A stretch of DNA of 23,813 bases from positions 1-23,813 of IMG/VR virus record IMGVR_UViG_3300019487_000095. One strand, 5' to 3'. This stretch comes from a virus. The position numbers and the translations under genes are program-made. Position 1 is the first letter of the stretch, and the number at the start of each line of letters is the position of its first letter. Positions 3,539 to 23,607 of this stretch are shown here, one piece after another. The notes below the pieces were generated by a model. The model searched no databases. It was not told the origin of the DNA and worked only from the letters and a program-made list of their open reading frames with translations.

Positions 3539-4330
3539 TCAGCACTGGCTGCCGGTCGCCGGGTTGTTCATCAGCGAGTGCCCGCATGTCGAAGTGGCCC
3601 CGGTGTAGGACTGGCTCACAATGGAGTATACCGTGGATGCGACCACCGGGACAGTGATCCCGCACGACTGGCTGGGACCCTGGGGCACGAGGCCGACGCA
3701 GGACGCGGGCACGTCCGCGTAGGGCAGCTCGACGTCCCCGCCCACGATGAAGTCGTCGAAGCCGAAGACGTCGAACCCGCCCAACGTGTTACCGAAGACG
3801 ACCTCGTCGAACTGGACTGTGGTCGTCACCCCGACGTAGGCCATCGACCCACCCTCGGGTGCGGCACCGCCACCACCCACGCTGTGAGGCACGGTCAGGA
3901 AGTCGACCTGCGCCCCGTTGCGCTTGAACTCAAGCGTCAGAGACCCGCCGAAGTCACCGAGGTCGATCGCATAGAAGCCGATCGCTGTCAGGGTACGGGA
4001 GAAGGTGATCGAGAACAGCGACGCTGTATCGAAGTACCGTCCGCCTGAGACTGCGTGCGCGTAGCGCCCCACCAAGTTCGTCGCGCCGCCTGCGAATCCA
4101 TCAACGAAGCCGATCCCATTGAGGGTCGCGGTCCCGAAGGCTCCAAAGTTCAGCGCGATCGGGGTGAGCGTACCGATCGTGATGCTCTCGAACGATTCGG
4201 TAGACGAAACCTGCGCACCGAGCACAGCGCGAAAGGCAGCTTCCCGAGCCTCGGAGTTGGCGAACGAAGCGGCACGCACAAGGGAGGCATCCCCGGTGCC
4301 TGCGTCGAAGGCGTAGTAGACAGTCGCCAT
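3539..4330 (-). CDS. Unidentified beta-sandwich protein, resembles exported PEP-CTERM-type domain
   Basis: A 263-aa protein of unknown function. Residues around 100-200 contain TAIGFYAIDLGDFGGSLTLEF and FDVFGFDDFIVGG. I recognise these as the style of a beta-sandwich domain found in many secreted PEP-CTERM-type bacterial proteins; no C-terminal sorting motif is present. The last 60 residues hold four cysteines that could form disulfides. Its place between capsid and tail genes suggests a virion surface or decoration role, which is inference. Unusually, the ATG at 4330 has no Shine-Dalgarno: the mRNA upstream reads CCTACCACTCCTTCCTTC. A pair of competing G/C hairpins lies just before it. The start is the first ATG of the frame and the protein begins MATVYYAFD. 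Confidence 0.7.
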   Translation of the reverse strand: MATVYYAFDAGTGDASLVRAASFANSEAREAAFRAVLGAQVSSTESFESITIGTLTPIALNFGAFGTATLNGIGFVDGFAGGATNLVGRYAHAVSGGRYFDTASLFSITFSRTLTAIGFYAIDLGDFGGSLTLEFKRNGAQVDFLTVPHSVGGGGAAPEGGSMAYVGVTTTVQFDEVVFGNTLGGFDVFGFDDFIVGGDVELPYADVPASCVGLVPQGPSQSCGITVPVVASTVYSIVSQSYTGATSTCGHSLMNNPATGSQC

Positions 4331-19820: not shown

Positions 19821-19865
19821 GGCGCGGTGTTGCCGCGCCCTTGACGATGGCCCGGAGCAAGGGCC
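19821..19865 (+). promoter_or_regulatory. Two-hairpin leader, copy 1 (divergent)
   Basis: Hairpin 1 is GGCGCGG/CCGCGCC (19821-19839, 5-nt loop). After a 9-nt spacer comes hairpin 2, GGCCC/GGGCC (19849-19865) with loop GGAGCAA. A GGAGGG ribosome site and ATG 19889 follow. The layout matches the leaders at 20327, 21621 and 22379, but the second stem is shorter and differs in sequence, so this copy is the weakest member. Confidence 0.5.
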
Positions 19866-19888
19866 GAAATTCCCGTGGAGGGACAGAA

Positions 19889-20011
19889 ATGGAAAGCGTA
19901 GTCTTCGAAGTGAGCGGGCTGGTCTTGAGCATCAAGTTGATGATCGGATTCGTCGTCGCCGTGGCTGTCGCCGTACCGGCGCTGTTGGCGCTGACAGGGG
20001 GCTCGCGATGA
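19889..20011 (+). CDS. Small single-span membrane protein (40 aa)
   Basis: A 40-aa ORF starting MESVVFEVSGLVLSIKLM, with one hydrophobic helix (about residues 17-36, LMIGFVVAVAVAVPALLALT). GGAGG lies 7 bases before ATG 19889, and its stop overlaps the next ATG (ATGA). It is the first ORF after a two-hairpin leader. Function unknown; it is probably an inner-membrane peptide. Confidence 0.65.
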   Translation: MESVVFEVSGLVLSIKLMIGFVVAVAVAVPALLALTGGSR

Positions 20012-20307
20012 GCCCCCGTAGCACCGACCGCGCCGTCCGCCGGTTCAACTATTCCCTACAGGTTTGGACCATCAACGGCATCATCCAGCGCTGTGGTCAT
20101 CCGGACCGCATGCGCACCGTGAGCCGGTCATGCTGCAACGCCTACGAGCTCGCCGGGCGCCACCTCAGCCGGATCGAGATCCCCAGCGACCCGTGCGCGG
20201 ACGGTTGCCGTTCCGGCTGCGAACACGACCTTACGCCAGAGGCACGGCGTGACGCTGCAGAAGCGCGGATCGATGCAGAGGCGAGGAAACTGTTGGGTTT
20301 AGAGTAG
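20008..20307 (+). CDS. Cys/His-rich small protein, unidentified
   Basis: A 99-aa protein. Cysteines and histidines are clustered: C29, H31, C42, C43, then C63-x3-C67-x3-C71-x-H73. This suggests a small metal-binding domain, although it matches no zinc-finger spacing I know. The C-terminus (TPEARRDAAEARIDAEARKLL) is a charged helix. ATG 20008 is coupled to the 40-aa membrane peptide. Function unknown; a DNA- or RNA-binding early phage protein would be a guess. Confidence 0.65.
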   Translation: MSPRSTDRAVRRFNYSLQVWTINGIIQRCGHPDRMRTVSRSCCNAYELAGRHLSRIEIPSDPCADGCRSGCEHDLTPEARRDAAEARIDAEARKLLGLE

Positions 20308-20326
20308 GGTTGAACTAGACGATGGG

Positions 20327-20377
20327 CGAAGCCCCTCGGGGCTTCGTTAAGTCACAGGCCCGGTCCAAAGTCCGGGC
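20327..20377 (+). promoter_or_regulatory. Two-hairpin leader, copy 2
   Basis: Hairpin 1 is CGAAGCCCC/GGGGCTTCG (20327-20346; the written gap is 2 nt, so the innermost pair probably opens). An 11-nt spacer beginning TTAA follows. Hairpin 2 is GCCCGG/CCGGGC (20358-20377) around the 8-nt loop TCCAAAGT. Then come a purine-rich ribosome site (GGGGAGGAGGTG) and ATG 20399. No U-tract follows hairpin 1, so simple intrinsic termination is unlikely. Confidence 0.7.
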
Positions 20378-20398
20378 GAGGGGAGGAGGTGAGTCTTG

Positions 20399-20545
20399 AT
20401 GATGTTCCTGCGAGGCTGGCGGACACGGTTTGACCGGGAGGCCGCGGCAAGGCGGGATAGGATCCGGGAGCGTATCACTCGGATCGAAGTCGAGCGCGAG
20501 GTTGACGAACTGCTCTCCACGATGCTTCGACAGTCAAACACCTAA
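20399..20545 (+). CDS. Small basic helical protein (48 aa)
   Basis: A 48-aa ORF starting MMFLRGWRTRFDREAAARRD, almost wholly helical, very rich in Arg and Glu, ending in LLSTMLRQSNT. AGGAGGT lies 8 bases before ATG 20399. It is the first ORF after its leader and precedes the DUF932 gene by 20 bases. It may bind nucleic acid or act as a leader peptide. No family is recognised. Confidence 0.6.
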   Translation: MMFLRGWRTRFDREAAARRDRIRERITRIEVEREVDELLSTMLRQSNT

Positions 20546-20565
20546 CCCCAGGAAGGCAACGCACC

Positions 20566-21591
20566 ATGGCGCATAACATCAGTGAGCGAAACGGCAAGGC
20601 ACAAATGGCGTACACGGGCGAACAGCCGTGGCACGGTCTCGGCACGCGCGTCGACGGTCTGCAGACGGCCGAATCGATTCTCGTCGCAGCCGGGCTCGAT
20701 TGGACGGTCAGCACGCGGCCGATGTTCCACGGTACGGTCCCCAACAGGCTGCAGGACGTTCCCGATCACGTCGCGATCGTCCGAGACGGTGACGACACTG
20801 TGTTCGGCGTCGCGTCCAAGCGCTACCAAATCGTTCAAAACGCGCAAGTCGGTGATCTCGGGCAAGCTCTGATGAACGAGGGGGCATGCTTCGAAGTGGC
20901 TGGCGCGCTCGGCAACGGGAGCAAGCTTTGGCTTCTCGCCAAACTCCCCGGAGAGTTCGAAGTCATCAAAGGCGATATGGTCAAACCGTACTTCCTACTC
21001 GCCTGGGGCCATGACGGCAAGCACGGAATCGCCGGCAAGCTGACTCCGGTCCGTGTCGTGTGCCAGAACACGCTGGCAGCGGCAGGGTTCGGCAAGGGGA
21101 AATGGTCGCGGTCGGCGGATATCTACATCCGCCACTACGGCAACCCAACCGTGAATCTCAGTAGCGCCCGGGAAGCTCTCGGACTGGTCATGACGCAAGC
21201 CGAGCGGACGCGCGACGCTTACCAGGCGATGGCGCAGTACCGAATCACGTCTGGACACGTCGCGGAGTACATCCACAACGTGTTCCCCGAACCTGAAGTG
21301 CCCACCGGCACGTCGGACTTGACGGCCATCGAGGCCGCCCTCATGCGGTACGAGAAGTGGGAAACTCTCACCGACGAGGTAATCGGACTGGCGAACCACG
21401 GTCGCGGTGCTGACATGGCGCGCGGCACGCTCTGGGGCGCCTACAATGCCGTCACAGAGTACGTGGATCACGTCTATCCGGTGCTGAGCACCGGCAAGGT
21501 GTCTGCGGCACGGCAAGAGTCGGCGCTGTTCGGCACCTACGCGGAAGTCAAGACGCGTGCGCTAGACACGGCGCTCGCGATGGTCGGCTAG
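20566..21591 (+). CDS. DUF932 phage/plasmid-like protein
   Basis: A 341-aa protein of the DUF932 family (phage/plasmid-like, TIGR03299 type). It starts MAHNISERNGKAQMAYTGE, and the diagnostic PWHGLGTRV follows at residues 21-29. Further family segments are VFGVASKRYQIVQN, ACFEVAGALGNGSKLWLLAKLP, LTPVRVVCQNTLAAA and a C-terminal NHGRGADMARGTLWGAYNAVTEYVDH. The biochemical role is unknown; members are common on phages and plasmids. Full length is normal for the family. An AGGAAGG lies nine bases before ATG 20566. Confidence 0.9.
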   Translation: MAHNISERNGKAQMAYTGEQPWHGLGTRVDGLQTAESILVAAGLDWTVSTRPMFHGTVPNRLQDVPDHVAIVRDGDDTVFGVASKRYQIVQNAQVGDLGQALMNEGACFEVAGALGNGSKLWLLAKLPGEFEVIKGDMVKPYFLLAWGHDGKHGIAGKLTPVRVVCQNTLAAAGFGKGKWSRSADIYIRHYGNPTVNLSSAREALGLVMTQAERTRDAYQAMAQYRITSGHVAEYIHNVFPEPEVPTGTSDLTAIEAALMRYEKWETLTDEVIGLANHGRGADMARGTLWGAYNAVTEYVDHVYPVLSTGKVSAARQESALFGTYAEVKTRALDTALAMVG

Positions 21592-21620
21592 GCTGCAGGC
21601 TAGCGGCCAACGCAGAGAGG

Positions 21621-21696
21621 CACGGCGAGGATATTCCGGGCAGAGGATCCGGTCCCCTCGCCGTGTTAATGCGGAGGCCCGGTCTCAATCCCGGGC
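21621..21696 (+). promoter_or_regulatory. Two-hairpin leader, copy 3
   Basis: Hairpin 1 is CACGGCGAGG (21621-21630) paired with CCTCGCCGTG (21656-21665), enclosing 25 nt that hold a small CCGG/CCGG helix. An 11-nt spacer beginning TTAA follows. Hairpin 2 is GCCCGG/CCGGGC (21677-21696) around TCTCAATC. Then AAGAGGGGGTGA leads to the 43-aa ORF. Stem sequence, loop length and spacer length of the second half are identical to copy 2, although hairpin 1 is unrelated in sequence. Confidence 0.75.
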
Positions 21697-21719
21697 AAGA
21701 GGGGGTGACGGTGGGTGAC

Positions 21720-21851
21720 ATGCGCGGGAGAGATGCTGATCAGATCAATCGGTATCGGGGCAGCGTGGATCGCGCTCGTGCTGATGACGTTGATGATCCG
21801 AGCGCGTTCAGTGAAGTGAACCCGTGGCAGGATGAGGGAGGCGAGGCGTGA
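21720..21851 (+). CDS. Small acidic protein (43 aa)
   Basis: A 43-aa hydrophilic ORF starting MRGRDADQINRYRGSVDRAR and ending with an acidic segment (DDPSAFSEVNPWQDEGGEA). It may start instead at in-frame GTG 21705 or 21711, which lie closer to the AAGAGGGGG sequence; ATG 21720 has GGTGGGTGA. Its stop overlaps the next GTG (GTGA). It is the first ORF after leader copy 3. Unknown function. Confidence 0.6.
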   Translation: MRGRDADQINRYRGSVDRARADDVDDPSAFSEVNPWQDEGGEA

Positions 21852-22369
21852 TTTTCGCAAAAGATCAGAACGGTAACCCTGACATGGTAGCGGAGGCAAT
21901 CCAGGCGTTCGATTCGGACATCAAGATGATGACCGAACGCGCCAAGCGCGGACGCAGGGGTCGTGCGGTCATCGCGCGCGTGCTGCGCGCCATCAAGGCG
22001 CTTCCGAGCGCGAGTCACATCGACAGTGTCTACACGTTTGTCCCATGGACCGGTGACAACGGCGAGGTTCGGCTCGGGCTAAAGTCCGATCAGCGGAATA
22101 GTCGAATCCTCCGGGAAATCGTGGGCAAGCTTGGAGTCAGGATCACGAAAGACCAGGGGTACGGTGCCACGTTGAACGCGGAGTTCAACGTCGACAGTGT
22201 GTTGTTCATCATCACCGGCTACAAGCCGGACACATGCCGCGTGGTGACAGAGACCGTCGAGACCGAAATCAACACGGCCAATGGGATCATCGAGCGCGAT
22301 GGTCGTTACTACCGGTCGGAGACGCGCTCGAAGGTCGTCTGTGAAGGTGCCGCCGACGGCGACTCCTAG
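21848..22369 (+). CDS. Unidentified phage protein (173 aa)
   Basis: A 173-aa soluble alpha/beta-type protein, not recognised. Visible are a basic helical region (MMTERAKRGRRGRAVIARVLRA, about residues 27-48), a central part with FVPWTGDNGEVRLGL and RNSRILREIVGKLGVRITK, and a C-terminal strand region (DSVLFIITGYKPDTCRVV, TETVETEIN). GTG 21848 overlaps the stop of the 43-aa ORF; a GAGGCGAGG stretch lies upstream. No signal peptide or membrane segment is seen. Confidence 0.75.
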   Translation: MIFAKDQNGNPDMVAEAIQAFDSDIKMMTERAKRGRRGRAVIARVLRAIKALPSASHIDSVYTFVPWTGDNGEVRLGLKSDQRNSRILREIVGKLGVRITKDQGYGATLNAEFNVDSVLFIITGYKPDTCRVVTETVETEINTANGIIERDGRYYRSETRSKVVCEGAADGDS

Positions 22370-22378
22370 CATGAGCCA

Positions 22379-22440
22379 CGGCAAGGCGTAGGACAGCGCC
22401 TTGCCGGTAAATGCGCAAGTCCGGGTGGCAAGTCCCGGGC
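22379..22440 (+). promoter_or_regulatory. Two-hairpin leader, copy 4
   Basis: Hairpin 1 is CGGCAAGGCG/CGCCTTGCCG (22379-22406, 8-nt loop). A 12-nt spacer beginning GTAA follows. Hairpin 2 is GTCCGGG/CCCGGGC (22419-22440; 7 pairs including one G-U) around the 8-nt loop TGGCAAGT. AAGAGAGGGGG and ATG 22456 follow. Relative to copies 2 and 3, the stem bases differ on both sides while pairing is kept, which looks like compensatory change. The 3' flank CCGGGCAAGAG is shared with copy 3. Confidence 0.75.
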
Positions 22441-22455
22441 AAGAGAGGGGGTAAC

Positions 22456-22572
22456 ATGCGTGCCATTGTGTGGGCACTGCAAGTGTTCTACATCATCGCG
22501 TGCGGGGCGACCATCTTCTTTGGTACCGCTCTGGCGATCCTGGATCCGTTGTTTCCAGGGTTGTTCCCATGA
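22456..22572 (+). CDS. Small membrane protein (38 aa)
   Basis: A 38-aa ORF starting MRAIVWALQVFYIIACGATI, with one hydrophobic helix (about residues 4-28) and a short Pro/Phe-rich tail. GAGGGGG lies 4-5 bases upstream and its stop overlaps the next ATG (ATGA). It is the first ORF after leader copy 4, as the other membrane mini-ORF is after copy 1. Unknown function. Confidence 0.65.
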   Translation: MRAIVWALQVFYIIACGATIFFGTALAILDPLFPGLFP

Positions 22573-22745
22573 GCCGCGGCATCAGCCGTCCCTGTGAGAA
22601 CTGCAGCGAGGTTCGCCGGTGCGTCCTGACGCGGGTCGAAGTCCCCGGCATCGCGGCCGCTGACGAGGGACAGACCGGGCAGCGCGTCCATGTCGCAGAG
22701 TATCTCTGCGCGACGTGTCGGCGCGCGTTGGGGTACGCATCCTGA
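22569..22745 (+). CDS. Small zinc-ribbon-like protein
   Basis: A 58-aa protein with two CxxC knuckles: C9-E-N-C12 and C47-A-T-C50, plus C18. This spacing is typical of a zinc ribbon that binds nucleic acid or a protein partner. ATG 22569 is chosen over an upstream in-frame GTG because it overlaps the stop of the 38-aa gene in an ATGA junction. Target unknown. Confidence 0.7.
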   Translation: MSRGISRPCENCSEVRRCVLTRVEVPGIAAADEGQTGQRVHVAEYLCATCRRALGYAS

Positions 22746-22782
22746 TCGGCCCAGGGGAGCGTAGCGTGGCGCTAGCGAGCGC

Positions 22783-22956
22783 ATGCCGGGTACGTGGGTT
22801 GCGGCCTGCGATGCCGGAGGCGAGGAAGGTCGCTTCTACGCTCCCCCAGGCCCGCCGCGGGCGACGTCCCTCGACGCTCCCTGGGTCGGGGTCGTCAACC
22901 AGCCGCGCGCGCGCGTTGAACCGCAGAGCGTAAACCGCAGAGAAAGGACGGGATAG
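22783..22956 (+). CDS. Hypothetical small protein (57 aa)
   Basis: A 57-aa ORF starting MPGTWVAACDAGGEEGRFYA, then a Pro/Arg-rich second half (APPGPPRATSLDAPWVGVVNQ). Its TAG abuts the ATG of the GP88-like gene (TAGATG), and the codons look more protein-like than the other two frames of this 211-bp gap. The ribosome site is poor. It is plausible but unproven; if it is not a gene, the gap 22746-22956 is non-coding. Confidence 0.45.
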   Translation: MPGTWVAACDAGGEEGRFYAPPGPPRATSLDAPWVGVVNQPRARVEPQSVNRRERTG

Positions 22957-23607
22957 ATGAAAATCGCGGAGGCTAACGCTATCACCGGAGGTCTCAGCAA
23001 CCCCTCGAAGATGCCCGGGTACGCATTCGGGTTCAGTGCGACGAAGTGCATCACGGGCTCGAAGCTTCGTGCTGTTGCCGGGTCCGTGTGCTCGGACTGC
23101 TACGCTTGCAAGGAATGTTACGTCTTTACCAGCGTCAAGCATGCTCACCAGGTTCGCTTCGAGAACCTGACACGCGCGATCGTGGACGTCGAGTACCGGG
23201 AGACGTGGGTCGATGCTATGGTCCGGCTGATCGCCCGCCGTCCCTGGTTCCGGTGGCATGACAGCGGCGACCTACAGAGCGTTGACCATCTGGTGCTGAT
23301 CGCCGAGGTGTGCAAGCGTACGCCAGATGTCCGGCATTGGCTGCCCACACGCGAGTATCGGATGGTGGCTGAGTACCTGGCCACGTTCGTCAAGCCTGAG
23401 AACCTGGTAATCCGCGTCTCGGCGCACATGGTGGGCGATCACCGTCCTGCCGCAGCGTTTGCCCAGAAACACGGGGTCGTCGCGAGTGGTGTCAGTGAGA
23501 GCGAGGCGGGCAAGACGTGCCCCGCGCGCGATCAGGGGAATGAGTGCGGCGAGTGTCGGGCATGCTGGGATCCTAACGTGCCTCTGGTAATCTACCCACT
23601 ACACTGA
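22957..23607 (+). CDS. GP88-like cysteine-rich phage protein
   Basis: A 216-aa protein matching the mycobacteriophage 'gene product 88' family as I remember it: NPSKMPGYAF (15-24), a Cys cluster C45-x2-C48-x2-C51-x2-C54, FRWHDSGDLQS (98-108), HWLPTREYR (127-135), LVIRVSAHM (150-158), then C188-P-A and C197-x2-C200-x2-C203-W. With nine cysteines in two clusters, a bound metal or iron-sulfur cluster is likely. The biochemical activity is not established to my knowledge. ATG 22957 follows AAAGGACGGGATAG. It is a full-length member. Confidence 0.85.
   Translation: MKIAEANAITGGLSNPSKMPGYAFGFSATKCITGSKLRAVAGSVCSDCYACKECYVFTSVKHAHQVRFENLTRAIVDVEYRETWVDAMVRLIARRPWFRWHDSGDLQSVDHLVLIAEVCKRTPDVRHWLPTREYRMVAEYLATFVKPENLVIRVSAHMVGDHRPAAAFAQKHGVVASGVSESEAGKTCPARDQGNECGECRACWDPNVPLVIYPLH

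Follow-up and report, generated by a model that had tools for sequence, protein, structure and literature searches.

Type-P5 twister ribozymes between the early genes of a phage and their probable role in cutting a polycistronic transcript

The DNA analysed here was the complete, linear IMG/VR virus record IMGVR_UViG_3300019487_000095 (23,813 bases, hereafter the window), probably a fragment of a phage genome. In its rightward cluster of small genes, three intergenic elements were almost certainly self-cleaving ribozymes of the twister type P5, and it was likely that their self-cleavage divided the early polycistronic transcript at the borders between genes. This reading was based on the identity of the elements, their covariation, their recurrence in other phages, and their placement between genes. 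The original prediction, made from the letters alone, had described four tandem two-hairpin leaders in this region. Copies 2-4 of this series turned out to be twisters scoring above the gathering threshold of the Rfam family RF02684, whereas copy 1 had no twister match. The parts listed for copies 2-4 were present as described, including the P4 stems, the spacers starting with TTAA, TTAA and GTAA, the lack of U-tracts, the ribosome sites, and the start codons. Namely, the first and second hairpins corresponded to stems P1 and P4, and the TTAA/GTAA spacer between them was the cleavage strand (U^AA).

The comparison with RF02684 (type-P5 twister) gave scores of 52.6, 50.2 and 39.1 bits for copies 2, 3 and 4 against a gathering threshold of 37.6, with matches spanning positions 20318-20375, 21611-21694 and 22369-22437. 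The E-values were 1.7e-8 and 6.6e-8 for copies 2 and 3 (whole-window Rfam scan with permissive settings) and 4.3e-7 for copy 4 (221-nt scan). Moreover, a genome-level RF02684 search recovered all three copies and produced no matches in 14 control genomes. In the whole-window Rfam scan nothing but Twister-P5 rose above gathering, and no riboswitch or other cis-regulatory family was found; a mir-552 match (28 bits versus a gathering threshold of 100) was rejected as chance. We also used a covariance model (R1) constructed from 42 phage twisters, which was fitted to the non-pseudoknotted structure and did not include the pseudoknots T1 and T2. It scored the three copies at 30.4, 54.2 and 21.9 bits, respectively.

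All parts of a type-P5 twister were recognizable in copies 2-4, namely P1, P2, P4, the U^AA strand, the CAA of loop L4, T1, and T2. The CAA that had been noticed in the second-hairpin loop was this conserved L4 motif, except that the loop of copy 2 read AAA. Unlike the usual P2 pairing of UGC with GCA, copies 2 and 4 had GUC/GAC and AUGC/GCAU, and copy 3 carried a long P1 arm.

Copy 2 (20318..20377, plus strand) began with the P2' strand GAC (20318-20320) and the T1 strand UGG (20323-20325). They were followed by the P1 hairpin (20326-20346), the UAA (20348-20350) with a predicted cut at 20348^20349, the P2 strand GUC (20351-20353), and P4 with L4 (20358-20377). T1 consisted of C20365-G20325, C20366-G20324 and A20367-U20323, and T2 of A20354-U20371 and C20355-G20370. 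Copy 3 (21611..21696, plus strand) had P2' CGCA at 21611-21614, T1 strand GAG at 21617-21619, the long P1 hairpin at 21620-21666, UAA at 21667-21669 (predicted cut 21667^21668), P2 UGCG at 21670-21673, and P4 at 21677-21696. Its T1 pairs were C21684-G21619, U21685-A21618 and C21686-G21617, and its T2 pairs were G21674-C21690 and A21675-U21689. In copy 4 (22369..22440, plus strand), the upstream UAG stop codon ended on the first base of P2' GCAU (22369-22372). The T1 strand GCC (22375-22377), P1 (22379-22407), UAA (22408-22410, predicted cut 22408^22409), P2 AUGC (22411-22414) and P4 (22419-22440) came next, with T1 pairs G22427-C22377, G22428-C22376 and C22429-G22375 and T2 pairs G22415-U22433 (wobble) and C22416-G22432.

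Read off the sequence, P2 was paired in every copy (GUC/GAC, UGCG/CGCA and AUGC/GCAU in copies 2, 3 and 4). In the same order, the three T1 pairs per copy joined the loop bases CCA with UGG, CUC with GAG, and GGC with GCC, and the two T2 pairs joined AC with GU, GA with UC, and GC with GU (one G-U pair in copy 4). In P2, T1 and T2 both strands differed among the copies while the pairing was retained. Thus, the compensatory change proposed for the leaders was stronger than claimed, since these three elements, overlooked earlier, also co-varied. The energies of P1 in copies 2, 3 and 4 were -15.6, -27.7 and -22.5 kcal/mol. We considered it very likely from the sequence that all three copies would cleave actively.

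The region called copy 1 (approximately 19821..19875, plus strand) consisted of two ordinary hairpins that preceded the first small open reading frame (ORF). The possibility that it was a diverged twister was rejected: the UAA strand and a T1 partner were missing, R1 run on the window with filters off found nothing there at E < 10, and the 151-nt region folded no better than its shuffles (z = +0.19). Since copy 1 failed as a twister, the window contained three copies rather than four.

Covariation among homologues, on which the idea of a structured leader depended, was found on a much larger scale. R1 matched 169 sites in 68 sources (the window and 67 others). In the alignment of 120 distinct rows, with T1 and one T2 register included, 92.1% of the cells were paired in comparison to 67.6% in shuffles. 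The covariation score was 0.554 versus 0.145 for shuffled alignments, none of the 500 shuffles reached 0.554, and the covariation collapsed when the partner was slid by 1-3 columns. T1 was paired in 98% of its cells, with UA (52), GC (47), CG (9) and AU (4) at its middle pair, and 118 of the 120 distinct members could form T2 in one or the other of two registers. Since T1 and T2 were outside the model, their covariation was the cleaner evidence. At the cleavage site, A followed the cut in 150 of 150 rows and U preceded it in 144 of 150. The covariation, the T1 and T2 pairing, and the conservation of the cut site are the marks expected of a ribozyme selected for activity.

The same features bear on the original prediction that the leaders were regulatory RNAs bound by a protein or a ligand, or sites processed by an RNase. 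In the early region of phage T7, RNase III cuts long irregular duplexes located between the genes. Both there and in the proposed twister system, intergenic cuts make single-gene mRNAs from a polycistron; the T7 transcript is cut by a host protein, whereas the twister would be cut by the RNA itself. Structured RNA upstream of early genes was compatible with leaders or RNase III-type sites of this kind. However, all tertiary contacts and cleavage-site nucleotides of the twister were conserved, P1 was a short hairpin rather than a long duplex (the median from L1 to UAA was 19.5 nt), and no riboswitch family matched the window. Therefore, ligand- or protein-bound leaders and RNase III-type sites were very improbable. 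What survived of the earlier suggestion was a phage cis-acting RNA that served as a processing site, which was close to our best functional reading; the bound protein or ligand and the RNase were replaced by an RNA that is itself the predicted nuclease.

Recurrence in other phages was also found, in the form of arrays in IMG/VR. A strict twister DNA pattern gave no matches over viral contigs, and a looser pattern of the twister core gave at least 119 stretches. RF02684 was over its cut-off in 34 of the 50 pattern-matched records searched, and many of them contained arrays. The largest (L246, G070:19500-32500) had 15 type-P5 twisters in 9.4 kb (21.4-30.8 kb) of an 82.9-kb viral record; its P1 stems were very different from each other, and mostly small genes of unknown function were located between the copies. 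Another record had 9 copies within 20.2-25.1 kb (about 5 kb), and 7, 6, 6, 5, 4 and 4 copies were found elsewhere. Within each array all copies were on one strand. No twisters turned up in named phages, where BLAST with the twister consensus gave matches at chance level only and BLASTN with the 9-copy array gave none; a twister was likewise absent from nine named records picked for their array or portal proteins, which was weak evidence of absence.

Copies of this kind were also present in contigs of bacterial genomes, where L278, L302, L293 and L291 had 2 to 5 type-P5 twisters. Genes of phage-like or mobile type were also encoded in L278, L302 and L291 (DNA methyltransferases, a ParA-like partition protein, and a weak match to a major tail protein), and L302 and L291 were titled as isolates, not as metagenome-assembled genomes. 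Prophage-like twisters were present in cultured bacteria such as Oscillospiraceae MH27-2 and Desulfosporosinus sp. I2. In a viral array, an ArdC antirestriction gene (L250:3446-4321, minus strand) was located between twisters. Antirestriction genes thus recurred beside phage ribozymes, since ardA adjoins hammerheads in PMC3088659.

It was conceivable that such arrays arose from selfish or duplicated leader units, namely a cassette of a ribozyme and a Shine-Dalgarno (SD) sequence that spread by duplication or recombination with no benefit of cleavage to the individual genes. In G055, several copies had nearly identical ribozyme 5' portions and downstream leaders, and the cores at L247:2285 and L247:5999 had identical scores. 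On the other hand, the copies in G070 and in the window were very different and yet kept their pairs, which pointed to selection for cleavage, and the placement at gene borders was tight. We therefore regarded the spread of a selfish unit as improbable.

The placement was evaluated at 117 testable sites (array or single copies), with gene borders called by a simple script rather than a trained gene finder. An upstream open frame ended nearby at 105 of them, and an SD sequence and a start codon followed within 100 nt at 104 (median 27 nt, range 10-95 nt). The full order of stop, ribozyme, SD and start was found at 93 of the 117 sites (79%), in comparison to 13.6% of random same-strand positions and 8.6% of the same sites on the opposite strand. 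In the bacterial-genome set, this order was observed at 25 of 34 sites. An additional control for positions inside an open frame was uninformative in GC-rich DNA. The ribozyme started within -3 to +5 nt of a stop codon at 78 of 121 sites (64%), as opposed to 6.5% of random positions. Often the two overlapped: the AG of AGCAGAG completed a UAG, or the UGA of GAGUGA (T1 strand) was the stop. In the 9-copy array, the gene borders that lacked a ribozyme were those where the called genes overlapped or were 12 nt apart.

Since the upstream stop codon was at or inside the 5' strand of the ribozyme, a terminating ribosome, with a footprint of generally known size, might cover P2' and L1 and block the folding. 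In this case, cleavage would take place only when upstream translation was low or finished, and the ribozyme would be a regulator rather than constant punctuation. The close spacing on the stop side (including the sites where UGA of GAGUGA was the stop) was in agreement with such translation gating, as was the much looser distance on the start side. However, compact phage genomes put anything beside a stop codon, and in the window copies 2 and 3 began 10 and 19 nt past the stop, with copy 4 at -1 nt. Translation gating was thus a possible but rather unlikely explanation.

In the mechanism that we favoured, cleavage by the twisters would segment the early transcript. RNA polymerase would transcribe the whole rightward early operon with one twister per large gap, and each twister would fold (P1, P2, P4, T1, T2) and then cut its own strand between the U and the A of UAA. 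Self-cleavage of the twister class at U^A leaves a 2',3'-cyclic phosphate and a 5'-OH. In the operon, cleavage would leave the upstream mRNA with the stable P1 hairpin (median -13.2 kcal/mol in 110 cases) and a 2',3'-cyclic phosphate at its end, within a few dozen nucleotides of the stop codon, so that a protected 3' end would arise with no need for a terminator. The mRNA on the downstream side would carry a 5'-OH AA and the P2 strand at its front, followed by a short structured leader (P4), the SD sequence, and the start codon. The polycistron would thereby be split into end-protected mRNAs of a single or few genes, and the two end groups might be expected to hinder exonucleases and 5'-phosphate-dependent decay. 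In vivo cleavage and end protection are what we infer, with the cleavage chemistry and the end groups taken from knowledge of the class. It was fairly likely that transcript segmentation was the selected role of the twisters.

Ordinary terminator-plus-promoter junctions would produce separate mRNAs as well. In L254 (G060:12000-19500; positions 3863-3926 and 1958-2012), perfect TTGACA-16-TATAAT promoters occurred at only two places in the 7.5-kb stretch, directly 3' of a type II hammerhead and directly 3' of a twister, and in this array the ribozymes may stand in for terminators. However, U-tracts were absent after P1, and the scans of the window from 18 to 23.8 kb revealed neither an intrinsic terminator (GC hairpin and U-run) nor a promoter-like site, with the promoter search limited to sigma-70-type promoters. 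Such junctions, which would have spoken against the leaders as first proposed, were therefore scarcely to be expected.

The hammerhead of L254 (48.3 bits) shared its array with twisters and was located 2 nt past a stop codon. Its equivalent post-stop location supported an exchangeable use of the cut itself. A more far-reaching form of transcript segmentation, which we put forward with less than even confidence, was punctuation by RNA only. Namely, in some phages nearly every sizeable gap of an early operon would contain a twister, or a hammerhead in its stead, joined directly to the preceding stop codon, the termination of translation and the cutting would be coupled, and every gene would be expressed from a separate mRNA with protected ends, with no need for terminators or host RNases.

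Two additional helices were considered and not included in the model. The 5' and 3' flanks showed no excess of pairing that would have indicated a closing P5 helix (mean -3.93 versus -3.77 kcal/mol). A helix between the new 5' end (UGCG...) and a CGCA before the SD sequence had at least 5 pairs at 27 of 121 sites versus about 14 with permuted flanks, which was suggestive in some clades and not in the window. In L247, L253, L257, L249 and L172, the post-cut strands UGCGC, UGCAC and UGCGG had the complements GCGCA, GUGCA and CCGCA just before the SD sequence. There were matching changes within L247, and after cleavage the 5' end of the mRNA could fold back into a cap helix adjoining the SD sequence.

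Several observations weighed against segmentation by twisters. When records were picked by protein homology (DUF932, terminase, portal), RF02684 was over its cut-off in only 1 of 50, a terminase relative with 42% identity; twisters were not general among the relatives of this phage. The array set was pattern-selected and contained related phages, and the counts given above are of sites, not of independent events or prevalence. Within the window, the distances from stop to ribozyme were looser than in the big arrays. Copies 2 and 4 also departed from the commonest core (P2 GUC/GAC in copy 2, an altered P2 in copy 4, and low R1 scores in both) and could therefore be slow. The 34 of 50 pattern-matched records, in comparison to the 1 of 50 chosen by protein homology, suggested that the arrays marked some phages rather than one particular gene. 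Similarly, DUF932 relatives were found at 80 loci (about 30-35% identity), and none of the 39 of those records searched had a twister; thus, the DUF932 gene was not the link.

The left part of the window was a leftward structural block of the podovirus type (terminase, head-tail connector PF12236, capsid PF19821, and tail protein), in which the head-tail connector was nearest (about 35%) to Pelagibacter podoviruses. The small genes around the twisters were clustered and oriented rightward, and included those for a DUF932 protein and a GP88 protein. All of the following frames were on the plus strand. An ORF of 99 aa without a family assignment (20008..20307) ended 10 nt before copy 2, and a 48-aa ORF (20399..20545) followed this copy with the SD sequence GGGAGGAGG at 20381-20389. 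The DUF932 protein of 341 aa (20566..21591; Pfam PF06067, E 4.8e-49; phrog_1221) had its stop 19 nt before copy 3. Downstream of copy 3 was the ORF 21711..21851, which could start at GTG 21711 or at the in-frame ATG 21720 and had the SD sequence AAGAGGGGG around 21698-21705. The 173-aa ORF 21848..22369 ended with the UAG (22367-22369) that overlapped the first base of copy 4, and the small ORF 22456..22572 came next, with the SD sequence GAGAGGGGG at 22443-22451. A DUF932-like gene held a parallel position in L248, where a 480-aa protein (L248:4684-6123) with a weak DUF932 match (20.5 bits; cut-off 23) was encoded after the last twister of the array; in the window, the DUF932 gene was between twisters.

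From 20.0 to 22.6 kb of the window, a twister was present in every gap of more than 20 nt. A gap of about 212 nt (22745-22956), which preceded the GP88 gene, was without one. Within this sole large twister-free gap of the operon, positions 22752-22850 could form a long branched stem (GGGGAGCGUAG...CUACGCUCCCC); the fold of 22740-22960 had a z of -1.74, and there was no Rfam match.

Since the window elements belonged to a class already known, and their setting had been seen before, they were new members and not a new class. Perreault et al. (PMC3088659) reported clustered hammerheads in prophages that cleave in vitro, one triple set also in E. coli, and processing by such clusters was proposed in 2011. 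As in those clusters, several self-cleaving ribozymes on the same strand flanked successive single genes or short gene blocks of phage operons, with 3 in the window and up to 15 in other phages. In contrast to them, the ribozyme class and fold were different, and the twister arrays reached 15 copies and were anchored at stop codons. According to PMC10085705, the twisters and hammerheads of bacteria occur preferentially in the vicinity of Mu-like phage genes and of other ribozymes, for a reason that was called unknown. The present twisters shared this proximity to phage genes and other self-cleaving ribozymes; however, they were mostly beside early or accessory genes (DUF932, ArdC antirestriction, AAA ATPase, and unknowns) at near one per border. 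The theta ribozymes of gut phages, which are like those of hepatitis delta virus (HDV), are likewise small phage ribozymes taking over RNA-end formation, but they act at tRNA 3' ends and belong to a different class (PMC10879173). The size of the twister arrays, the layout of near one per border, and the stop anchoring appeared undescribed in the literature searched; the founding twister papers were not covered, and priority was uncertain.

With 3 to 15 twisters each and a recurrent layout of stop, ribozyme, SD and start, the arrays make one answer to what self-cleaving ribozymes do in bacteria and phages directly testable, namely mRNA segmentation, possibly coupled to translation. The exact predicted cut sites can be searched for in 5'-OH or cyclic-phosphate RNA sequencing.

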